64,000 bases of DNA. Origin: Bartonella taylorii. Its GTDB lineage: Bacteria; Pseudomonadota; Alphaproteobacteria; Rhizobiales; Rhizobiaceae. The DNA is taken from the NCBI RefSeq assembly GCF_023920105.1, contig NZ_CP083693.1, positions 1,195,001-1,259,000 on the forward strand, in the 5' to 3' direction. The translations under genes and the position numbers were made by a program. Within the stretch, counting starts at the first letter, position 1. Each line of letters opens with the position of its first letter. This document shows, piece by piece, positions 554 through 14,446 of this stretch. The notes under the pieces are model-generated. The model worked only from the letters and a program-made list of their open reading frames with translations. It was not told the origin of the DNA and made no database searches.

Positions 554-1167
554 ATTCGAAATATTCTACAATGTTTGTTAATATTGCTGTGCTTTTTTTC
601 ATTTCTACTTTTTCCATTTTGTGTGGAACGTTTAGCGTCAATTATATGCTCAATTCCTTCAATAATTTCGGACGTTTTACAATTGGCGAATGGAGTGCTT
701 ACCCAGAAGTAGGAACAACCAACACTGATCCCTATACCCGTGCGCGCACTGCCAAACGAGGTGACATTTCACTCGGATATACAGAAGGGCTTACTTTCCA
801 ACTGTGGAAAGACAACCACGGACATCCGCTACGCCCCCATTGCCATTATTTGCTCAAAGGTCACATCCCTGAAACCCGCCTCTTTACACTTTATACAGCT
901 GACAGATCACTCAAACCGTACACTTCATCTAAAGAAATACCTTTCGAACTCTATACCAACAATGTTACCTATGAAAGTGATGGCTCTTTGCGTATCAACA
1001 TCGCACCAACACCACAAACTGGAAATTGGCTTGCAACGGTTAGTCAAAAAGAATTTGGACTTATTCTTACTTTATACGATACCTCAATCATCTCCGCAAC
1101 GGCATTACAAAAGCTTACAATGCCCTCTGTAGAACAAATCCCATCAGGACAAAAAAGCTGTGACTAG
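550..1167 (+). CDS. DUF1214 domain protein
   Basis: A 205-residue protein with one N-terminal hydrophobic segment (about residues 9-33) and a DUF1214-type beta-rich C-terminal part; recognisable blocks include FTIGEWSAYP near residue 45 and NGLR/NW-like turns ending in ILTLYDT. DUF1214 is commonly encoded next to DUF1254 in rhizobia, as here. The TTG start at 550 overlaps the stop of the penicillin-binding protein gene by four bases; an ATG at 571 in the same frame is the alternative. The protein is probably anchored in the inner membrane and faces the periplasm. Its biochemical role is unknown. Confidence 0.75.
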   Translation: MNSKYSTMFVNIAVLFFISTFSILCGTFSVNYMLNSFNNFGRFTIGEWSAYPEVGTTNTDPYTRARTAKRGDISLGYTEGLTFQLWKDNHGHPLRPHCHYLLKGHIPETRLFTLYTADRSLKPYTSSKEIPFELYTNNVTYESDGSLRINIAPTPQTGNWLATVSQKEFGLILTLYDTSIISATALQKLTMPSVEQIPSGQKSCD

Positions 1168-1699
1168 ATTTATTCATGCCGCGCTTCTTGCAAGCATTGG
1201 TGCTGTTATTGTTCATATTTGCATTTTATTTCTGATCCCCTATTGGATACGAGATAATATATGGATAGAGCTTAAAAAATCGGGAGCTCCTTATCAATTC
1301 ATTGACTTGGATGCTCGTAATCCTATTCAACAGTCCGCTGATCCGCTCTTTCTTCTTAAAGTCTGCAGATTTGATCTCGAAAATGGCCCTGTTCATTTAA
1401 AAACTTTAAAGACAATACAATTTTGGACACTAGCAGCCTACACATACGACGGAATGATTTTCTACAGCCTTAATGACCGAACATCCCCTGATGCTAAGCT
1501 AGATCTTATCATTGGCAAACCGTTACAAATAATAGAACTTAAAAAGCCAAAACCCAAAGACAATGCCAATTCAGTTTTCATCGCTAAAAATGTAAATAAA
1601 GGTTTTGTCGTTTTACGTACCTTTGCTCCTTCTGCACTTGAAAAAAAAGAAGGTGAATCCTTCCTTTCATCTGCCACCTGTCACATATTCAATGGATAA
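1160..1699 (+). CDS. DUF1254 family membrane-anchored protein
   Basis: A 179-residue protein with one N-terminal transmembrane helix (about residues 5-28) and a soluble domain containing DxDARNP and VCRFDLENGPV blocks, typical of the short rhizobial DUF1254 proteins encoded behind DUF1214. A GTG start at 1160 overlaps the upstream stop by eight bases, so the two are probably translationally coupled and may act together at the envelope. The C-terminal 40 residues are Lys-rich and then hydrophilic. No catalytic motif is visible and the function is unknown. Confidence 0.7.
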   Translation: MTRFIHAALLASIGAVIVHICILFLIPYWIRDNIWIELKKSGAPYQFIDLDARNPIQQSADPLFLLKVCRFDLENGPVHLKTLKTIQFWTLAAYTYDGMIFYSLNDRTSPDAKLDLIIGKPLQIIELKKPKPKDNANSVFIAKNVNKGFVVLRTFAPSALEKKEGESFLSSATCHIFNG

Positions 1700-2316
1700 A
1701 AGAACAATAGACAAATGCTTTTTTCTATAAGAGTAAACAAAATATACGCAAAATGGTTATTTTTAATCTCAATTAGTCGAACATCAGAATTAAAATGGAA
1801 TTTTCATTCTAACTTTCAAACAACTGAATTTTTTATTGGGGCCCAAAAACCATTCCATGATCCCCACAATCGTCTTCCATTGAAATATAAATCTTGCACA
1901 CAAATACCTAAAGAACGATATATTGATTATAAATATGAAGAGAATACGACCTCTGTTGCAAATAATCATAGCTTATTCGATAGGAATAACATGCCTTTGA
2001 CCAAAACATAATAGAGATAGCTGAAAACTCTGTACAAACAAACTTGTAGAAACCTTACAGCTTGCCCTCTAAGCTTATTGTTATGTGACGACAAATTATT
2101 CTCATAAAATTGGACCGACACCATGATAAGCTATAGAAAGAATGATTATTGCCCTTAATGAATGCGTTAAAATAATTGCTGGCAACTTGATGAACATCAC
2201 GCATCCTTGACCTCAAAAACAAGTGCTTTACTTTTGTTGTATGACCAGAAGCTTTTAAGATATGAAACCTAGGAAAAAATTTGCTTAGGGTTTACAATTG
2301 AGGGAAAGAAAACTTC
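1700..2316. other. Intergenic, 617 bases
   Basis: AT-rich spacer between the DUF1254 and DUF1499 genes. A 98-codon open frame (1715-2011, plus) has no recognisable motif, no ribosome-binding site and unremarkable composition, so it is not called. It may be decayed sequence. No terminator hairpin was found. Confidence 0.5.
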
Positions 2317-3102
2317 ATGCAAAAAAAATATGTGCGGTTAATTTCAAGAGCAGCGGTATGGTCCCCTCGTTTTGGCGGATTAGCGTTCTTTATTTTGTTA
2401 TTTTCAATCCTTTTACAGCGCTTTTCTGTGATTAATGTCGTTGATTTCATCATTTTAATTGTAATTTCTGCCTGCTGTGTTGCTGTTTCTCTTTTTCTTG
2501 CACTCAAAGCATTTTACAGTTTATGGGAGTATGGTGCTCTGGGGGGAATGAAAGCTTTAAAAGGAATCATTTATTCATTAATAACAGCTACACCATTGGT
2601 GTTATTTTTTGGACTTTGGTTTACCTTACCGGCTCTTCATGATGTTTCTACTGATACACGAAGACCCCCAGCCTTTTTTCGCACGACACGCCCCAGTGAT
2701 GCTTTGCCGCTTAAAAGTGTTTTAACTGAACAAGCAGCATTACAAATATCTGTGTGGCCGGAAATGTCAGGACGTCGTTATGATGGTTCACCTGATCGTA
2801 TTCGTAAATCCGTTCTCAATGTTTTAGCAGCCTATGATTGGCCTGTTGTGGCTCAACGAGAGTTTAAAGGCGAAGAAGATGCGCTTTATATTGAAACAAT
2901 GGCAAAAACTTTTTACCTAGGCTTTATTTCGGACATCATGATACGTTTAACCGATGAAGGGGATACAACTTTTGTTGATATGCGTTCTGCTTCGCGGTAT
3001 ATGCCGAGAGATTTGGGTACCAATGCTGCTTTTATTATCGATTTTATGGATGCACTTGATACAGAAATCGCTTCTCTCCCTCTTTCTCAAGATGATGAAT
3101 AG
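2317..3102 (+). CDS. DUF1499 family membrane protein
   Basis: A 261-residue protein with three predicted transmembrane helices (about residues 18-34, 40-64 and 82-107) followed by a periplasmic DUF1499 domain from about residue 130 to the end. The blocks WPEMSGRRYDGSPDRI, YIETMAKTF, SDIMIRL and VDMRSASRYMPRDLGTNA are characteristic of the family. The function is unknown; the family is widespread in rhizobia as a single-copy gene. The last 367 bases, encoding the C-terminal domain, occur again at 4431-4797 as a pseudogene, so this is the parent of a local partial duplication. The ATG follows the purine-rich stretch 'gagggaaagaaaac'. Confidence 0.85.
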   Translation: MQKKYVRLISRAAVWSPRFGGLAFFILLFSILLQRFSVINVVDFIILIVISACCVAVSLFLALKAFYSLWEYGALGGMKALKGIIYSLITATPLVLFFGLWFTLPALHDVSTDTRRPPAFFRTTRPSDALPLKSVLTEQAALQISVWPEMSGRRYDGSPDRIRKSVLNVLAAYDWPVVAQREFKGEEDALYIETMAKTFYLGFISDIMIRLTDEGDTTFVDMRSASRYMPRDLGTNAAFIIDFMDALDTEIASLPLSQDDE

Positions 3103-3557
3103 AAGCTAGAAGTATAGTAAGTTATATTAGTAAATCAGCTTATCTCAAAAATAAATTTTGAGACACGCAAAAACGAACAAATCAGTTACTGCCTCTCAAC
3201 AGCTTAAGCATACTGACAAGTTCTTTGCCCCCCTAAAAGTAACTTATGGCTTCTTTTTAGCGCGTGACATATATTATCATAAAATATAATATAAGGTAAT
3301 ATATTTACAGAAAAAATCAACAATAAAAACACACTTATTATCGATGATAAAGTTTTACAGATTATTTTAAACTTAAATCATTAAATATTCGAAACAATAA
3401 AATACACATAAATTCATCTGTGTTTTACAATAAATGATTATTGCAATTTCATAAAGAAAATTCATAATAATAAAACAAAAATTATATATAGTTACAAATA
3501 ATAGTAACTTACTTAAATGAAAATCATTTTTTATAAAACATAATTTAAATATAAATA
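3103..3557. other. Very AT-rich intergenic segment at the left edge of the island
   Basis: About 455 bases consisting almost only of A and T after 3260. No open frame with a ribosome-binding site is seen on either strand. It separates the intact DUF1499 gene from the first peptide/membrane-protein cassette and marks a sharp composition change. Confidence 0.5.
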
Positions 3558-3788
3558 CTAATATCTAATATATTTAAAAGCAACATAAATAAAACAAAAC
3601 GCCAAAAATAACAAAAATAACCACCAAAATGTCTTAATCGCTTCCTTTATACTATTTTTCCAACTGTCACCACTGCATCTATAAATTAATGAAAATGAAA
3701 ATATAAAAATAAATATTGAAAATAAAATATCAAAAACATTATCAATTAATAGTGAAATAACATTATTACCAATATACATAATAAACAT
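3558..3788 (-). CDS. Small two-helix membrane protein, candidate immunity protein (cassette A)
   Basis: A 76-residue protein with two strongly hydrophobic stretches (about 8-36 and 52-72) separated by a short basic loop containing DSWKNSIKEAIKT. The other tiny membrane proteins of this island carry the same W-K-x-[SA]-x-K loop, e.g. TWKKSIKLG and SWKHAAKEA. It lies 131 bases downstream of the Gly-rich peptide gene 3920-4216 on the same strand, with a perfect palindrome between them. A start at the fourth codon (3779) is possible, with GGATG just upstream. By position, size and topology it could protect the producer against the neighbouring peptide. That is inference: no family was recognised. 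Confidence 0.55.
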   Translation of the reverse strand: MFIMYIGNNVISLLIDNVFDILFSIFIFIFSFSLIYRCSGDSWKNSIKEAIKTFWWLFLLFLAFCFIYVAFKYIRY

Positions 3789-3848
3789 CCGAAATGAAAT
3801 TTTTTACATAAAATATTATAATGATATATATCTATAAAATAAATAAAA

Positions 3849-3878
3849 TTAGACATATATTTATAAATATATGTCTAA
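3849..3878 (-). terminator. Perfect 30-base palindrome between peptide A and its membrane partner
   Basis: TTAGACATATATTTA is followed immediately by its exact reverse complement. Read on the minus strand it is followed by a T-rich run (TTTTATTTATTTT), as in an intrinsic terminator or attenuator that would reduce read-through from the peptide gene into the membrane-protein gene. Read on the plus strand it is followed by A-rich sequence. Confidence 0.55.
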
Positions 3879-3919
3879 AAAATTGATTTTAAAATATATT
3901 ATTAAGAATTATCTACAAA

Positions 3920-4216
3920 TCAAAAAATGTGAACGCGACCACCACAATCCTGAAACTTGCTTATAGGTCCTATAATAAGCCCTGCATTGCTGCCAAATTT
4001 ATAACCTGTAAATCCACCCGCTACAGCGCCTACAGCCGCACCCCATGGACCACCTCGCGAACCCCGTACTCCTCCATACACAGCTCCCACAGCTCCTCCG
4101 AGGAGTCCTACCTCAGTCTTATCTTTCATCGCGGCATGATAATAATCTTTAATACCACACGCTGTAGTTGAATGTGAGCTACTGTGTGAATCTCTCGATG
4201 AGCTTGAACTACCCAT
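3920..4216 (-). CDS. Glycine-zipper small protein, candidate bacteriocin-like peptide (cassette A)
   Basis: A 98-residue protein. The N-terminal 18 residues are Ser/His-rich and begin MGSSSSSRDSH, identical to the first 11 residues of the protein at 7587-7844. From about residue 38 there is a glycine-zipper region with repeated GxxxG spacing (GGAVGAVYGGV, GAAVGAVAGGF, GSNAG). Two cysteines sit at the flanks (about residues 20 and 91). There is no Sec signal peptide. A good AAAGGAG ribosome-binding site precedes the ATG. Leaderless Gly-zipper proteins of this size next to ABC exporters include Cdz-type bacteriocins; other Gly-zipper proteins are structural. Export and toxicity are inference. 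Confidence 0.65.
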   Translation of the reverse strand: MGSSSSSRDSHSSSHSTTACGIKDYYHAAMKDKTEVGLLGGAVGAVYGGVRGSRGGPWGAAVGAVAGGFTGYKFGSNAGLIIGPISKFQDCGGRVHIF

Positions 4217-4255
4217 TTTATTCTCCTTTAATTTCTCATTATTTCTTAAAATAAT

Positions 4256-4312
4256 GTATCTATATGATACGTTTTAAGTGGTTATCACACGTTTTAGATT
4301 AATGTAAAACAT
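4256..4312 (-). promoter_or_regulatory. Dyad GTATC-N5-GATAC and conserved upstream block, cassette A
   Basis: Directly upstream of the peptide A gene lies GTATC-tatat-GATAC (4256-4270), followed by a block conserved in order with cassette B (GTTTTAAGTGG, TATCA, CGTTTTAGA, AATGT, AAACAT). The same layout occurs at 6452-6510 and partly at 7877-7921, each time just upstream of a peptide gene. Conservation outside coding sequence points to a shared promoter/operator. Confidence 0.5.
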
Positions 4313-4430
4313 ATTTTTAAAAATAATTATAAAATCATAAATACATTATGTATATATTATTCGTGTACATAATGTATAATTTAATTAAATAATAATTCTA
4401 TTTACAATACTGTTGAAATATGAGACATGA

Positions 4431-4797
4431 AGCATTACAAATATCTGTGTGGCCGGAAATGTCAGGACGTCGTTATGATGGTTCACCTGATCGTATTCGT
4501 AAATCCGTCCTCAATGTTTTAGCAGCCTACGGTTGGCCTGTTGTGGCTCAACGAGAGTTTAAAGGTGAAGAAAATTAGATTTATATTGAAACGATAGCCA
4601 AAACTTTTTATCTTGGTTTCATTTCGGACATTATGATACGTTTAACCAATGAAGGAGATACAACCTTTGTTGATATGCGTTCTGCTTCACGTTATATGCC
4701 AAGAGATTTGGGTACTAATGCTGCTTTTATTATCGATTTTATGGATGTCCTTGATACAGAAATCGCTTCACTTCCTCTCCCACAAGATGATGGATAA
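4431..4797 (+). pseudogene. Duplicated 3' fragment of the DUF1499 gene
   Basis: A 367-base copy of 2736-3102, collinear and of equal length, with scattered substitutions. It lacks the first 140 codons and start, and has an in-frame TAG at 4576-4578 where the parent has GCG (the preceding GAT is AAT here). It begins exactly where the non-coding block upstream of peptide A ends, so it marks a recombination joint. Together with the parent it forms a direct repeat flanking cassette A. Confidence 0.9.
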
Positions 4798-5165
4798 AAA
4801 TCAAGAGAGATAAGGCACTTTATTTCATAAAAATTGCTTATTTTTCAATAAATATGATCCATAAGAAGAGAATCACTTTTCAAAAACTATAGACTGACAA
4901 TTCTTATACAAAAGACAATAATCTCAAAACAACCCATTCTTGAAATAATTAAAAAGATTCAAAAATAGGAAATAAAAAACAGAACTCTTGATGATAATGC
5001 TTGATATTAAAGACACTGTCTCACTGTAATCAGTAAACATTTTTTAAAGATAAATAGTATATAAAAATAATAACTATGAAATTATTACAACAAATATATC
5101 TCAATAATAAAAAATAAGTTTTTATTATTTATTAATAAGATATAAAACTAATATTATGATTTATT
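4798..5165. other. AT-rich intergenic segment between the DUF1499 fragment and cassette B
   Basis: About 370 bases without a credible gene, promoter or hairpin. Composition becomes extremely AT-rich towards 5165. Confidence 0.5.
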
Positions 5166-5399
5166 TTATACATTTAATATGTTATTAAATAAATTAAATT
5201 TATAGTATATATTCATAAAAATTATTATAAAAACAATTGCAAAAATTAAACCTATCACTAACAATAATATATTTTTTTTGTATTCTTTTGTATTATAATT
5301 TTTATATTTATTTAGTAACAATAAATAATATATAATTGTAATTACACTTATTATTGAAAATAACATATTTACAACAAAGCTAATAAAATTCATCCACAT
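5166..5399 (-). CDS. Small two-helix membrane protein (cassette B, third partner)
   Basis: A 77-residue protein from the ATG at 5399, preceded by GGTGG; the frame extends to a TTG at 5408. Two long hydrophobic helices (about 4-30 and 45-67) flank a basic loop with KYKNYNTKEYKKNILL. The loop resembles, but only loosely matches, the W-K-x-[SA]-x-K motif of the other small island membrane proteins: tyrosine stands where they have tryptophan. It lies last in a minus-strand row of peptide B and three membrane proteins. The coding strand is almost entirely A/T-ending codons. The function is unknown; an immunity-like role is inferred from context. Confidence 0.4.
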   Translation of the reverse strand: MWMNFISFVVNMLFSIISVITIIYYLLLLNKYKNYNTKEYKKNILLLVIGLIFAIVFIIIFMNIYYKFNLFNNILNV

Positions 5400-5545
5400 T
5401 AATAACAACCACCAAAATAGTTAATAAAAAAATATAAATCATTATAAATAATATAATTATATAAAGTTAATTTCATTTATATAAGATTATATTTGTACGT
5501 AAGCAAGATAACCACTTATAAAATACATAGATATTTTATATAATA

Positions 5546-5725
5546 TTAGTTTATGAAATAATAAAGTCCAAAATATATTATAAAGTATATAATAATTGTA
5601 ATTAATCCTAATTTAATAGACTTTTTCCAAGTAGGAAATTGTAATTTAGAAAAAAATATACTTAAAATTAAAAAAATATTTGTTGCAAGTAACGCATTTT
5701 TAATATTAAATATAATGTCAATCAT
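5546..5725 (-). CDS. Small two-helix membrane protein (cassette B, second partner)
   Basis: A 59-residue protein from the ATG at 5725, chosen because GGAG sits six bases upstream; the frame can extend to a TTG at 5737. Two hydrophobic helices (about 8-27 and 40-57) flank a loop reading FPTWKKSIKLGL, the clearest match to the loop in the cassette A partner (SWKNSIKEAI). The gene follows 5748-5954 on the same strand after a short gap, suggesting one transcript. The function is unknown; it is a candidate immunity-type protein by analogy of size and position. Confidence 0.5.
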   Translation of the reverse strand: MIDIIFNIKNALLATNIFLILSIFFSKLQFPTWKKSIKLGLITIIIYFIIYFGLYYFIN

Positions 5726-5747
5726 AACAAACTCCAACTTAAATATA

Positions 5748-5954
5748 TTAAGTTATATAAAAATTAACTAAAGAAAATAATAAAAAGAAAAATACAAAAA
5801 ATAAACCTATTCTTATAATTGAACTTTTTCTAATATCTTTTTTAAGACAATTTTTATGTTTGTAATATAATTCAAATAAAGATATAAATATTATTAAAAT
5901 AGATATCGACGTAAATAATTCAATTAATTCATTAATAATATGAAAAACACCCAT
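5748..5954 (-). CDS. Small two-helix membrane protein (cassette B, first partner)
   Basis: About 68 residues if translation begins at the ATG at 5954, which gives the same size as the other members of this set; the open frame reaches an ATG at 6044 (98 residues) but shows no ribosome-binding site there. Two hydrophobic helices flank a Lys-rich loop, KHKNCLKKDIRKSSIIRIG, which resembles the W-K-x-S-I-K loop of its neighbours, with arginine instead of tryptophan. It is the first gene downstream of the peptide B gene. The function is not known. Confidence 0.4.
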   Translation of the reverse strand: MGVFHIINELIELFTSISILIIFISLFELYYKHKNCLKKDIRKSSIIRIGLFFVFFFLLFSLVNFYIT

Positions 5955-6095
5955 AACGTATAAAATTTCCAAATTAAAATATAGAGTTAGTATATAACTA
6001 AAAGCCATTTTATCAAGATATATAGATAAGTTAATAAAAAACATGTCTATAAAATTATTATAAACTCAGAGATATATTTCTAAATACTTTATAAA

Positions 6096-6422
6096 TTAAT
6101 AATAGCACGCGTTATACTGAGCATTTAAACCTACACCTACTCCTGCCCCATAGCCAAGACCTACACCGACTCCTGCACCTGGAATTATACCCCATCCGCC
6201 TGATGTAAGACCTCCAACTATACCGCCTACAAATACTCCATCAGTTGTTCCTATATCTCTTCCCACCCCTCCGTATGAATTTGCTGTAGAGAGATAATCG
6301 CCGACAGTACACCCAGGCTGTGATCCACTACTTGAAAAATTAATTGATGAAATATCAGACCAAGCATTAGACGAACTATGAGACAAACCAGTATTAGACC
6401 AACCACTAAGCCAACCAAACAT
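6096..6422 (-). CDS. Glycine-rich small protein, candidate bacteriocin-like peptide (cassette B)
   Basis: A 108-residue protein. Residues 1-36 are Ser/Trp/Asn-rich with no signal peptide. Residues 62-100 form a long glycine zipper (GVFVGGIVGGL, GAGVGVGLGYGAGVGVGL). Cysteines at about 38 and 106 bracket this region, as in peptide A. It has a strong AAGGAG ribosome-binding site and a shared upstream dyad. Sequence identity to peptides A and C is low outside the zipper, but position, orientation, size and upstream region are the same. An exported, membrane-active peptide is the best guess; a structural Gly-zipper protein is the alternative. Confidence 0.6.
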   Translation of the reverse strand: MFGWLSGWSNTGLSHSSSNAWSDISSINFSSSGSQPGCTVGDYLSTANSYGGVGRDIGTTDGVFVGGIVGGLTSGGWGIIPGAGVGVGLGYGAGVGVGLNAQYNACYY

Positions 6423-6451
6423 AAAAATTCTCCTTATTTTATTTAAAATAA

Positions 6452-6510
6452 CGTATCAACATGATACGTTTTAAGTGGCTATCATGCGTTTTAGACAAAT
6501 GTCAAACATA
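6452..6510 (-). promoter_or_regulatory. Dyad CGTATC-N5-GATACG and conserved upstream block, cassette B
   Basis: The perfect inverted repeat CGTATC-aacat-GATACG (6452-6468) is followed by the same ordered block as in cassette A (GTTTTAAGTGG, CTATCA, GCGTTTTAGA, AATGT, AAACAT). Between here and the exporter remnant a second stretch (TATTTACAATACTGTT, about 6606-6621) also matches cassette A (about 4400-4414). Confidence 0.5.
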
Positions 6511-6671
6511 ATTTTAAAATAGTGATAAAATTATTTATAAAATATAAATACATTATGTTTACATTGTATTAATAAAAAATGTATTTTTTATTTAGTAATA
6601 ATACTATTTACAATACTGTTTAAATATGCGACATTAATCGCTCTTTTTCTTAAACAAAATTATAAATTCAA

Positions 6672-7066
6672 ATGAGCAATTCACCCGAAAAGCTAGTATC
6701 CTTCTCTTGGTTTACTCAAACCACCAAGAAATATATTCATTATGTCATCGAACTTTGTTTTGTCGCCATTGTTTTGCGCTTACTTGGCTTGGTCAATCCT
6801 TTTATTTTTCAGGCAATTATTGACCGCATCTTACCCTCCCAGCACGCGGAAAGCCTTTATGCTATTGTTGTCCTTATGATTGCTATCATGCTGTTTAGCA
6901 TTGCTCTTAGCACTCTATCAGGATATTTAGGAGCTTATTTAGCCAATCATCTTACTCTTAGAATTTGGATGTCGCATTTATACACATGTATTAAGCCTCT
7001 CCTTACCCGTTTTACGTACTTGGCAAGTGAAAGAATTGTTCACACGTATCGGAGAAGTTAATATGT
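6672..7066 (+). pseudogene. Type I secretion ABC exporter, N-terminal membrane-domain remnant
   Basis: The frame from ATG 6672 encodes the start of a HlyB/LktB-type membrane domain: FSWFTQ, then LRLLGLVNPFIFQAIIDRIL and two hydrophobic helices. After about 6965 the homology continues in another frame (readable as RIYTHVLSLSLPVLRTW, then FTRIGEVN), so a frameshift is present, and similarity stops near 7066. The rest of the membrane domain and the whole ATPase domain are missing, as is any N-terminal C39-like domain. It stands divergently from the peptide B gene. In bacteriocin loci such exporters normally secrete the peptide; this one cannot function. Confidence 0.8.
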
Positions 7067-7280
7067 TTCTAAAAAATAATATATTAATTTAAAAAACTAA
7101 TAATATAATATAAAAAATATAATCAATTTCATTTCTTTATTTAATTTTTTTCTAATAATTACCTTAACTTTGAACATATAAGTAAAAACAACTAAAAATC
7201 CTAACATGATTGTTGTCAATAATTATTGAATAAAACTATCCATAAAAAAATCAAAAATAGAATATAATTATTATTACTTT

Positions 7281-7469
7281 CTATAAAACAATATATTTAA
7301 TAATATAATCAACAGCATTTATTACTATAAATAATATAATTCCTATTGGCAATGCCTCTTTTGCAGCATGCTTCCAACTATAACTGTTAAATCTATAGCA
7401 CAACATACCTACCCAAATACCCATAATTAGTGGAAGAAATAATTTTATAAGTTTATGAATAATATCCAT
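7281..7469 (-). CDS. Small two-helix membrane protein, candidate immunity protein (cassette C)
   Basis: A 62-residue protein with hydrophobic helices at about 8-26 and 41-60, separated by the loop SYSWKHAAKEALPIG. The loop closely matches those at 3558-3788 (SWKNSIKEAI) and 5546-5725 (TWKKSIKLGL). GGGGGA lies about eight bases before the ATG. It sits downstream of the peptide C gene with a hairpin between them, the same order as cassette A. Function unknown; immunity is inferred from architecture only. Confidence 0.55.
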   Translation of the reverse strand: MDIIHKLIKLFLPLIMGIWVGMLCYRFNSYSWKHAAKEALPIGIILFIVINAVDYIIKYIVL

Positions 7470-7483
7470 AACAAAAATCCCCC

Positions 7484-7515
7484 AGATATCTATTTATCAG
7501 AAATAATAGATATCT
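7484..7515 (-). terminator. Hairpin between peptide C and its membrane partner
   Basis: AGATATCTATT (7484-7494) pairs perfectly with AATAGATATCT (7505-7515) around a 10-base loop. On the minus strand it is followed by GGGGGATTTTTG, which includes the ribosome-binding site of the next gene, so it may act as an attenuator or RNA-stability element rather than a classical terminator. Confidence 0.45.
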
Positions 7516-7586
7516 CCAAAATCAGTCGTGAAATGCTTTTAAATTATGTTACAATATCACTGGCCTCAGAGATATTCAGCATTCTT

Positions 7587-7844
7587 TCACTTTACCAGTG
7601 AAAGCATTATTTCTATCTTATTGATCAAGGCGTTACCACCTTGCTGTGCAGCACCTATTGCCATTCCATGGCCAATGCCAGATAGCCCTTTAGGGATACC
7701 AAGTAGCCCTCCTACTACTGCACCTTTAATACCATTTGCAGCCACGTCATAAGCATAACCATCCACATCACAACTGTCAGAGTGAAACCAACTTGATGGA
7801 TGTGAATGACCGTGTGAATCTCTCGATGAGCTTGAACTACCCAT
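7587..7844 (-). CDS. Glycine-zipper small protein, candidate bacteriocin-like peptide (cassette C)
   Basis: An 85-residue protein that starts MGSSSSSRDSH like peptide A, with about 30 near-identical bases at the start codon. A His/Ser-rich segment follows, then a glycine zipper from about residue 37 (GAVVGGLLGIPKGLSGIGHG, AIGAAQQGG). The C-terminus is short and lacks the second cysteine present in peptides A and B, so it may be truncated. No AAGGAG ribosome-binding site is present, unlike A and B. A small hairpin (CTTTCACT, 5-base loop, AGTGAAAG, 7584-7604) covers the stop codon. Probably a decaying copy. Confidence 0.5.
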   Translation of the reverse strand: MGSSSSSRDSHGHSHPSSWFHSDSCDVDGYAYDVAANGIKGAVVGGLLGIPKGLSGIGHGMAIGAAQQGGNALINKIEIMLSLVK

Positions 7845-7876
7845 TTATTATTTCTATTTATAAAAATAGAACCATT

Positions 7877-7921
7877 ATGATACGCATCGGTGACTATCAC
7901 GCGCTTTAGATAAATATCAAA
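7877..7921 (-). promoter_or_regulatory. Partial copy of the shared upstream block, cassette C
   Basis: ATGATACG, CTATCACGCG, CTTTAGATAAAT and ATCAAA appear in the same order as in cassettes A and B, but the left arm of the GTATC-N5-GATAC dyad has been lost. This is consistent with decay of this cassette. Confidence 0.4.
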
Positions 7922-8145
7922 TAAATCACTCACCCAAAAAACTGGGGTTCTCTCTTAGTTCATAGAACTATAAAGAGAGAGATTTATTATATCACTAAAC
8001 TTAGTCTCCTTATTGCTATTGTTTTGTGCGCACGGACTAGGAAAGCTATTTATTTTTAGATAATTATCGACCGTATTCTCTCCTTACAACACGCGGAAAA
8101 CCTTTATTCTATGTTGTGCTTATAATTTCTGTCACGTTGTTTAGC
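7922..8145 (+). pseudogene. Second, more decayed ABC exporter remnant
   Basis: DNA-level similarity to 6662-6900 of the first remnant: shared blocks include TATTGTTTTGTGCG, TTTATTTTT, ATTATCGACCG, CACGCGGAAA and CCTTTAT. It has many indels and no open frame. It stands in the same position relative to peptide C as the first remnant does to peptide B, showing that the whole unit (membrane protein, peptide, upstream block, exporter start) was duplicated before decay. Confidence 0.75.
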
Positions 8146-8296
8146 TCAGCTAGTAAAAAGCAGCTAATGATAGAATCAATCAAAAAACTATACAAAGCTC
8201 AGAATAGGAAACAACAAATGAATAGACCAAAAGATTCAAGATTTTCAAGTTTTAAAATTCCCGAACTTTTATACAACCTATGATTTGATTAAACAT

Positions 8297-8371
8297 TGGC
8301 TGGGGTACCTGGATTCGAACCAGGGAATGCCGGTACCAAAAACCGGTGCCTTACCGCTTGGCTATACCCCA
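8297..8371 (-). tRNA. tRNA-Gln (anticodon UUG)
   Basis: A 75-base cloverleaf with an encoded CCA end. The acceptor stem TGGGGTA pairs with TACCCCA and the discriminator is G. The anticodon stem CCGGT/ACCGG encloses the loop TTTTGGT, giving anticodon TTG. The T arm is CCTGG-TTCGAAT-CCAGG. The 3' end points towards the accessory island to the left. Confidence 0.97.
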
Positions 8372-9361
8372 AAAGAAAAATATGCTCACAGCCACTTCTG
8401 CACCTTATAGCGATTCCTGTGAATGTGCGCAATATCTGAAAATCAAAGCTTTTACTTTTTTATCATAAAGTTTTGAAGTCTTATTAATACTGCGCTGATG
8501 CAAAATTTGTAACGGAAACTTGTACTTGTTTATAACGCAAATTTATAACGCGAACACAAACAAATTTAACTATCAGTTATTTCGCATTATTCGTATTTGG
8601 TTATTTTATTCATTCATTTCATGGTAGAAAAAATGCAAATTTTGTACTGTATCAATAGATTTAATAGATTATCATGGGTTGCATTTTTTCTGATTCATTC
8701 AAACTCGAAACTCTTTACATGAAACAGGAGAACAAAAGAAATTTATGTGTTGATGATTTTTCATTCTTCAGTTTAAAAACAAGTCATCTTCCCCTACATA
8801 TAGATTAGACCAATAATGCGTAATGAATATAATTAGCCTATCATGGAAAATCCCATTTTGATCAATATGTGCAAACTTACAGTTGTAATTTGATTTATAA
8901 AATGCTTTTAAAGTCAGGGCAAAAATCCATAGTATCTGCAAAAGATAACTGCTAGCATTTCGTTGCAAATACTGTGATAAAAACTAGGGAACACTCATCT
9001 GAATAAGCCAGAAAAGACTTAGCAAAAATTGAAAGCATTTTGTGAGATATTTAAAGAAATATTTTAGGTAATAAAAACAAAGGCTCACAACTGTTTAAAT
9101 TTACTTTTCATTCTTTAAAAAAGATAATCGTATTTTTTGTTAGTCTACATATGTAGAAAATTCTTCAAAAGCAGTAGTTATATAACCTAATGATATTTTA
9201 ATTGCTTAAGCGCATACATCCCCCAAAAGCACCTTCACGAAGAGATAATCATAAAAATTTATTTAATACAAATAGGTATTCAGCATTTGCTTTTATATGC
9301 TGTAAATGGCAAATTAGGTTTGTGGAGTGAGCTTAACAATTAGAATCGAGGAGATTTTTAA
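8372..9361. other. Long intergenic region upstream of sodB
   Basis: About 990 bases without a credible gene. It contains a 14-base perfect palindrome TCTACATATGTAGA (9144-9157) of unknown meaning. The sodB transcript presumably starts near the right end, but no clear -35/-10 pair stands out. Confidence 0.5.
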
Positions 9362-9964
9362 ATGGCTTTTGAATTGGCCCCGTTGCCTTATGATTATGAT
9401 GCCCTTTCACCTTATATGTCACGTGAAACACTTGAATATCATCATGATAAGCATCACCTCGCTTATCTTACCAATACCAATAATTTTGTGAAAGATTTAG
9501 GCTTAGAAAATGAAAGCCTTGAAACTATTGTAAAAAAAAGTTTTGGAACCAATATTGGTTTGTTTAATAACGCAGCACAATACTACAATCATAACCATTT
9601 TTGGCTTTGGATGAAAAAAGGCGGTGGTGGTCAAAGACTACCTGAAAAATTAGCAAAAGCTATTGAAGCTGATCTAGGTGGTTATGATAAATTCCGCGCT
9701 GACTTTATTGCTGCTGCCAGTACCCAATTTGGCTCTGGATGGGCATGGGTTGCTGTTAAAGATGGCAAGCTTAAAATTATGAAAACGCCTAATGGTGAAA
9801 ATCCTTTAGTTCACGATGCTCATCCTATTCTCGGTGTTGATGTGTGGGAGCATTCCTATTACATCGATTATCGTAATGCACGCCCCAAATATCTCGAATC
9901 TTTCGTAGATCATTTAATTAATTGGGACTATGTTTTGAAACTTTATGAAGATTGTGGATTTTAA
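9362..9964 (+). CDS. sodB: Superoxide dismutase (Fe type)
   Basis: Converts superoxide to oxygen and hydrogen peroxide in the cytoplasm. The 200-residue length is normal for the family. Metal ligands are visible: His27 in YHHDKHH, His76 in NHNHFW, Asp159 and His163 in DVWEHSYY. Gln72 in NNAAQYYNH favours the iron-type enzyme. The ATG is preceded by GAGGAG. The gene is monocistronic, facing ptrB, with a strong inverted repeat between them. In a host-associated bacterium it would protect against oxidative stress; that is general inference. Confidence 0.97.
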   Translation: MAFELAPLPYDYDALSPYMSRETLEYHHDKHHLAYLTNTNNFVKDLGLENESLETIVKKSFGTNIGLFNNAAQYYNHNHFWLWMKKGGGGQRLPEKLAKAIEADLGGYDKFRADFIAAASTQFGSGWAWVAVKDGKLKIMKTPNGENPLVHDAHPILGVDVWEHSYYIDYRNARPKYLESFVDHLINWDYVLKLYEDCGF

Positions 9965-14068: not shown

Positions 14069-14446
14069 TTAAGGTAATGTGGTATGTTTCTGTTTTTGTG
14101 TGGAATCCTGTGTCCCTACATTGGGAGTAACATCTGGAGGAGCTGCCATATTCTTGTTTTCCAATATTCGTCCCAAATATTCGTAAGCTGCTCTTGCACC
14201 ATAACGTGCGCGTTCTCCAAGTGAACTTAAAAAGGATTTTCCAACTTTGCAAACTTCTATATTACGGTCACAGAATGCTCCTAAATCATTTAAAGCTTCC
14301 TTAAAAGCAATAATCACATCACTCGTTGTTGCCTCACTATTTGTTTGGGTAGAGGGATGATGATTGCTCGGTTTTGCTACAAAAAATGAAATGATGACAA
14401 AAACAAAAAACAAAAATAAGAATAATTTAATCAAAAAACGTATCAT
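14069..14446 (-). CDS. DUF5330 family protein
   Basis: A 125-residue protein with one N-terminal transmembrane helix (about 4-26), a low-complexity Ser/Thr/Asn linker, and a short conserved block of about residues 45-95. The block contains FKEALNDLGAFC, NIEVCKVGKSF and ERARYGARAAYEYLG, and its two cysteines could form a disulfide. This layout is typical of the rhizobial DUF5330 family, which is often found next to sufE and a peptidoglycan-binding protein, as here. The soluble part likely faces the periplasm. No function is known. Confidence 0.75.
   Translation of the reverse strand: MIRFLIKLFLFLFFVFVIISFFVAKPSNHHPSTQTNSEATTSDVIIAFKEALNDLGAFCDRNIEVCKVGKSFLSSLGERARYGARAAYEYLGRILENKNMAAPPDVTPNVGTQDSTQKQKHTTLP

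Follow-up and report, generated by a model that had tools for sequence, protein, structure and literature searches.

The closest described counterparts of the locus considered here, a set of small-peptide cassettes in Bartonella taylorii, are the Cdz bacteriocin of Caulobacter crescentus and the class II microcins. In Cdz (CdzABCDI), the Gly-zipper proteins, of 86 and 84 amino acids (aa), carry a leader that ends in G[G/A/S] and occur in a processed form; the paper on Cdz mentions neither HlyC nor acyl (PMC5380434). Class II microcins of the MccV type need a peptidase-containing ABC transporter, and an account of them notes, in Serratia microcin loci, a gene that resembles toxin-activating lysine-acyltransferase and may serve modification (PMC13101503), so an acyltransferase beside microcins has already been noticed. 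The Bartonella cassettes lie in a window of 64,000 nucleotides (positions 1195001-1259000 of NZ_CP083693.1, the single contig of a genome of 1,939,282 bases, here G000), where three minus-strand units stand between a DUF1499 gene (2317-3102) and a tRNA-Gln gene (8297-8371). In each, a peptide gene is followed by small membrane genes: 98 aa with one of 76 aa, 108 aa with three, and 85 aa with one of 62 aa. The units lie where, and in the order in which, a preliminary description made from the letters alone had placed them. Its divergent HlyB-type starts beside two units were recovered at units 2 and 3, and its size range of about 59-77 residues for the membrane proteins agrees with the listed open reading frames (ORFs), which reach 98 aa, once inner ATG codons shorten those of 98, 63 and 80 aa.

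That description likened the locus to Cdz. Shared features, as far as the excerpted Cdz paper goes, are small Gly-zipper proteins, divergent type I exporter genes, an alphaproteobacterial host and a small multi-spanning membrane protein, the immunity protein in Cdz and putatively so here. Cdz cargo is defined by a length of 60-151 aa and the presence of one or two Gly-zipper motifs, a definition that fits the peptides of units 1 and 2; a related class, pLong, goes beyond the range, reaching 281 aa. A type I exporter is expected within 10 kilobases (kb); the window holds hlyB pieces only, and the unbroken operon is ~63 kb off. Unlike Cdz, the Bartonella system has a HlyB of 555 aa without an N-terminal domain, a HlyC gene in the operon, often Ser-rich peptide N-termini and a K/Q-x3-C tail; by eye, the N-termini are Ser-rich, with GG pairs inside the zipper and no clear G[G/A/S] leader. 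The locus shares with class II microcins a small peptide, an adjacent inner-membrane protein (the immunity protein in microcins) and type I export, but differs from those in the excerpted account in that HlyB has no peptidase domain. HlyB, HlyD and HlyC homologues also occur in the HlyCABD and ApxCABD RTX operons; unlike these, the Bartonella genes are ordered B-D-C, HlyB is short, the cargo is small and no RTX repeat was found in HlyC-bearing genomes. A HlyC-family enzyme is likewise part of Class IV contact-dependent inhibition (CDI), where the CdiC acyltransferase provides a precedent for acylation in bacterial competition, although CdiA, as portrayed in the excerpted paper, is a large two-partner-secreted effector of a family other than these peptides (PMC8510554). 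By analogy the locus may work like Cdz and class II microcins, the resemblance to Cdz being one of architecture. Filing it as Cdz is not supported, given the transporter without a peptidase-like domain, the lack of a clear leader and the HlyC in the operon; the bacteriocin-immunity architecture is supported, given the partner pairing, the unbroken exporter in the genome and the co-occurrence of peptides with HlyC reported below.

We consider it likely that these are bacteriocin-immunity cassettes spread over several chromosomal sites and served by a peptidase-less, HlyC-linked type I exporter, and that those in the window are orphans. Each cassette would encode a small peptide, rich in Gly and active on membranes, together with at least one tiny inner-membrane protein shielding the producer from it. 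The peptides would leave through the type I exporter ~63 kb away, made up of HlyB without a peptidase-like domain, HlyD and a TolC-type outer-membrane factor. At least some peptides are probably fatty-acylated by the HlyC-type lysine acyltransferase prior to export, a modification that would aid their insertion into a neighbour's envelope, and the local HlyB pieces may be leftovers of a duplication of cassette, divergent promoter and hlyB 5' end. Export in trans, immunity through the membrane proteins, toxicity, acylation and action by contact or at short range are steps that we infer.

Where the preliminary description had seen only the beginnings of an exporter, an unbroken HlyB-HlyD-HlyC set is present in G000 and in 10 further genomes. 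A search of G000 with the HlyB piece found one long copy, at G000:C1:1132475 (locus L017), in an operon of HlyB (555 aa), HlyD (441 aa) and a HlyC-type protein (154 aa) with no internal stops. Pfam assigns these to ABC_membrane/ABC_tran, HlyD_3 and HlyC (PF02794; E=1e-32, 113 bits against a cut-off of 25), and ApxC (4whn; E=8e-19) is a relative of this HlyC with a solved structure. Judged by sequence, the L017 HlyB has no N-terminal peptidase-like domain; no peptidase family is among its 21 listed Pfam matches, ABC_membrane starts at residue 30, and residue 8 of the window HlyB piece aligns to position 124 of a 694-position HlyB model. Two genes for OEP-family outer-membrane factors are present in G000. 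In three comparisons, the ratio of nonsynonymous to synonymous change (dN/dS) is 0.06-0.09 for HlyB and HlyD and 0.11-0.24 for HlyC, one of the compared loci (L075) having Tyr at the catalytic-His position; the coding sequences point to strong constraint on HlyB and HlyD, and to constraint on HlyC. A relative of the 108-aa peptide without the usual start also diverges from the L017 operon, and behind the exporter's divergent region lies a 75-aa Pro/Cys-rich ORF (L017 8008-8235), a possible non-Gly cargo.

The peptides and membrane proteins recur elsewhere in the genus as partners. We sorted 47 peptide ORFs into eight hand-seeded classes, each ORF taking its best-scoring seed, and counted the 40 peptides with a classified membrane gene downstream, leaving out the 7 of 47 without one in reach as well as weak 98-aa matches in L100-L103 (21-22 bits). 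In 35 of the 40 cassettes, the membrane gene that comes first is of the kind most often found with that peptide class, two of these agreements being one-member classes and four pLong pieces coming from L090; 20,000 shuffles, which ignore shared ancestry although some pairs are simply inherited, reach at most 25. By class, the agreement is 5/5 for p85-t62, 15/17 for pLong-tYTF, 6/8 for p108-t98, 3/4 for p98-t76 and 2/2 for both pGAS-tIFL and pSHM-tDIH, with pTTT and pPro as the one-member classes. Such pairing is what cognate immunity predicts, and the accompaniment of peptides by membrane proteins that the preliminary description had reported for one locus is borne out in other Bartonella. The order of pairs varies among species (the window, L092, L093), and pairs occupy three chromosomal sites. 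Of 40 compared loci, 24 have the flanks of the window's site (DUF1499/sodB), seven those of cpdR-rpsI-rplM-recJ, two those of leuS and seven none of these. Extra HlyB N-terminal pieces, ending at residues 128-152, adjoin cassettes in six of the 40 (the window, L074, L077, L089, L091, L092), and in relatives such as L072, L075 and L079 the exporter itself stands next to cassettes.

Across 71 Bartonella genomes, 31 have a HlyC-like match; in 20 it is one open piece (cut by the contig end in G054). Among named relatives, HlyC is known from B. tribocorum, B. vinsonii, B. senegalensis, B. elizabethae and 'Ca. B. washoeensis'. The gene is named 'toxin-activating lysine-acyltransferase' by NCBI in several Bartonella. 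The RTX repeat (PF00353, E<=0.001) occurs in 12 of the 71 genomes and in none of the 31 with HlyC, B. taylorii included, so the usual kind of HlyC substrate is not found where HlyC is present. Relatives of p108 occur in 15 genomes, all of which have a HlyC-like sequence, and pLong in 20, of which 17 are among the 31. Taken together, p108 or pLong is present in 25 of 31 genomes with HlyC vs 3 of 40 without (Fisher p=3e-10, shared ancestry ignored). A genus tally of 19/71 for the 98-aa peptide was discarded as overstated, E falling below 1e-20 in four genomes only (G000, G031, G032, G066).

What may link cargo to exporter is the C-terminus. A C-terminal K-x3-C motif is present in 27 of the 47 peptide ORFs (8 at most in shuffled tails) and K/Q-x3-C in 34, and the peptide classes diverge in their middle portion. 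Of the 13 ORFs without K/Q-x3-C, 10 are, by eye, short or truncated or of the classes pTTT or pPro; the remaining three are the window p85, the p108 of L093 and the pLong of L077. At the other end, 28 of 43 peptide ORFs of at least 60 aa have at least eight serines in the first 40 residues. For a transporter that lacks a peptidase-like domain, a signal at the C-terminus would be fitting, and the lysine of the motif is a candidate acylation site. The idea that acylation falls on one conserved lysine where the zipper begins was dropped, 8/10 p108 ORFs being lysine-free and p85 variable.

Acylation of the peptides by HlyC is plausible because the enzyme of B. taylorii has a predicted catalytic dyad (His31 and Asp101), because the Asp is kept in all 23 stop-free HlyC pieces of relatives that cover its position, and because of the mutant results for CdiC. 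In the excerpted report on that enzyme, His and Asp mutants both have a competition phenotype equal to that of the deletion, and partial substrate modification persists in the His mutant and is lost in the Asp mutant (PMC8510554).

Relatives of the window's peptide and membrane genes in other Bartonella species share 49-92% protein identity, and 27 of 32 comparisons with the window copies give a dN/dS of 0.28-0.96, estimates that are crude in genes this AT-rich; from these comparisons, the window cassette genes are not chance ORFs. Spacing of the GxxxGxxxG type exceeds that of same-composition shuffles in the 98-aa (p=0.0004) and 108-aa (p=0.0002) peptides, for which the Gly-zipper character given in the preliminary description is upheld; in the 85-aa peptide it does not (p=0.16), so the label is weak for unit 3. 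That unit looks to be decaying: the C-terminus of p85 departs from those of its relatives and is without their terminal Lys-x3-Cys, the HlyB piece beside it has decayed, and the p85 gene lacks a clear ribosome-binding site upstream. Both peptide genes of units 1 and 2 have ribosome-binding sites, and both units have open frames. Pfam and NCBIfam scans of ten window proteins left all peptides and membrane proteins under the curated cut-offs, the Gly-zipper Pfam matches of p98 included, and thus gave no structural or cell-envelope family that would explain the peptides differently. With six window proteins in each search, PADLOC gave no match and PHROGs only weak ones, of p98 to long proteins of phages. 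The divergent exporter makes a toxin-antitoxin or holin module unlikely.

Several results weigh against the bacteriocin reading. The position of the motif lysine is Gln in 7/10 p108 ORFs and 8/10, the window's included, have no lysine at all, so lysine acylation cannot cover all cargo. The catalytic His is present in 14 of the 25 stop-free HlyC pieces from outside G000 and replaced by Tyr in 11 (among the 25 are two same-genome pairs, L020/L081 and L024/L090, and two partial pieces), and the HlyC of L168, a locus outside the genus, also has Tyr (by eye). HlyC is broken or partial in 11 of the 31 genomes that bear it; a stop-free full HlyB-HlyD-HlyC set was found in 11 of 37 fetched loci, the rest being broken, partial or without it. 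Both p108 and pLong are missing from six of the 31, and three genomes (G026, G056, G068) have pLong-type matches and no HlyC match. Five of the 32 peptide and membrane-gene comparisons give dN/dS >1, with few changes each, the highest being p108 of L094 (14 nonsynonymous vs 2 synonymous changes). Neither Pfam nor NCBIfam matched the window proteins to a bacteriocin family, and AlphaFold gave no usable structure for p108 (mean confidence, pLDDT, of 34).

HlyC loci outside Bartonella provide a further comparison. PF02794 occurs in 51 of 397 genomes of the order, and neighbourhoods were chosen at 15 places from this search and at 8 of 30 from a class-level search. Among the 15, one (L168) is cassette-like, six have a large RTX protein and eight have neither. 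L168 encodes a short HlyB-HlyD-HlyC exporter beside the gene of a 100-aa Gly-rich peptide, with a tiny membrane ORF (14100-14298; 13% GC in a 57% GC stretch) and a Rce1-like (CPBP) gene. In Gram-positive bacteria, proteins of the CPBP family have been linked with immunity to bacteriocins. On pSymB of Sinorhizobium meliloti Ak57, a 566-aa HlyB, HlyD and HlyC have small unannotated ORFs of uncertain meaning upstream. In the eight class-level loci, an RTX protein stands beside HlyC in seven, and HlyB is 707-738 aa long in all five loci where it is whole.

Other explanations have to be set against this evidence. The peptides might act on erythrocytes, endothelial cells or the arthropod gut, the membrane proteins protecting the producer or helping export; HlyC and HlyB serve RTX toxins that act on animal cells, and Bartonella lives in blood and vectors. 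We think such host- or vector-directed action unlikely, since self-toxic bacteriocins require just such a matching membrane protein for each peptide class, the plant symbiont S. meliloti has a related short HlyB-HlyD-HlyC operon, as has another non-Bartonella genome beside a CPBP-family gene, and G023 retains just a partial, diverged HlyC. That such matching holds for several kinds of cargo, every class recurring with a partner of its own, also makes it highly improbable that the proteins form a surface fibre or matrix with the small membrane proteins as assembly helpers; Gly-zipper proteins can aggregate, and the excerpted Cdz paper describes CdzC aggregating on the producer surface (PMC5380434), but a fibre needs no matched membrane protein per variant.

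The presence at the window of hlyB 5' pieces only, the damage to unit 3, the partly duplicated DUF1499 and the broken exporters of many relatives would all suit inactive relics of an exporter locus lost from this site. We give this little credence, slightly less than a host target, since units 1 and 2 are open with ribosome-binding sites for both peptide genes, an unbroken exporter exists elsewhere in the genome and dN/dS is below 1 in 27/32 comparisons. A bolder form of the bacteriocin-immunity reading, which we put forward tentatively and regard as rather doubtful, is that these are lipidated bacteriocins of a class not recognised before: HlyC-acylated Gly-zipper peptides, exported by a peptidase-less HlyB-HlyD that reads the C-terminal K/Q-x3-C, in mobile cassettes of Bartonella. 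The units that move, between three or more sites of the chromosome, would consist of the immunity genes, the peptide gene, the divergent promoter and the first 130-150 hlyB codons; one distant exporter could therefore serve orphans, and the arsenal could be reshuffled between species.

If the bacteriocin-immunity reading is right, blood- and vector-borne Bartonella would have a bacterial competition system, relevant where several species co-infect one host or flea. It would also link small antibacterial peptides with the HlyC-type acyltransferases familiar chiefly from RTX cytotoxins, and would explain the lysine-acyltransferase gene in the 31 genomes where no RTX repeat was found. In the literature searched, including the available parts of PMC2697382, PMC9336547, PMC11466379 and PMC8386478, we found no type I, HlyC or Gly-zipper system of Bartonella; microcin C operons, a different kind, are mentioned for Bartonella in the accessible part of PMC10949449.

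Table 1. Features of the cassette locus, in window positions.
Feature	Position	Strand	Remarks
t76, 76-aa membrane protein; putative immunity partner of the 98-aa peptide	3558..3788	-	same class first after same peptide class in L091, L093
p98, 98-aa Gly-zipper peptide	3920..4216	-	Ser-rich N-terminus, CGIKDYYHAA, terminal KFQDC; AGGAG upstream
Divergent regulatory region beside p98	4217..4440	no strand	common to other cassettes and the unbroken exporter; aligns upstream of other peptides, closest L017 8236-8445
Partial second DUF1499 copy	4425..4797	+	takes the place of HlyB in other units; 92% over 300 nucleotides to the gene at 2317-3102
t80, membrane protein (80 aa as listed)	5166..5408	-	present in p108 cassettes of the window, L072, L092, L094
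t63, membrane protein (63 aa as listed; 59 from ATG at 5725)	5546..5737	-	in p108 cassettes of the window, L072, L080, L092, L094
t98, membrane protein (98 aa as listed)	5748..6044	-	first after p108 in 6/8 p108 cassettes with a classified partner
p108, 108-aa Gly-zipper peptide	6096..6422	-	GCTVGDYLSTA, terminal QYNACYY, zero lysines
Divergent regulatory region separating p108 and HlyB piece	6423..6671	no strand	
5' hlyB piece (residues 1-130 of 555), no working exporter	6672..7061	+	frame change near 6962; 88-91% to L017 HlyB
t62, 62-aa membrane protein; putative immunity partner of the 85-aa peptide	7281..7469	-	first after p85 in 5/5 p85 cassettes with a classified partner
p85, 85-aa peptide	7587..7844	-	C-terminus differs from relatives
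Decayed 5' hlyB piece	7964..8131	+	internal stops; G000:C1:1202964-1203131

The t76 protein has a SWKxSI-type motif (alignment A1). The only Rfam match in positions 2000-9500 is the tRNA. By eye, the partial DUF1499 copy meets the divergent region of unit 1 at a common stretch of ~5 bases, a trace of a recombination event. A third site in G000 (L018) carries further peptides, membrane proteins and a decayed HlyB; several similar MGSSTTTYDTHGS peptides with SWK-motif membrane proteins lie at 600-5500, and similar segments that repeat between the units look, by eye, like terminators or recombination points. The pLong- and pSHM-type cassettes at G056 C3:3675-4106 and in L104, in a genome without a HlyC match, could be orphan cassettes or use another exporter. 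The HlyC loci with Tyr for His are L021, L022, L024, L025, L027, L031, L035, L037, L038, L041 and one piece of L042. Like the membrane ORF of L168, the membrane genes at 5166-6044 are extremely AT-rich, with 15% GC in a window of 37% GC overall; the peptide genes of the two loci have 44-55%.

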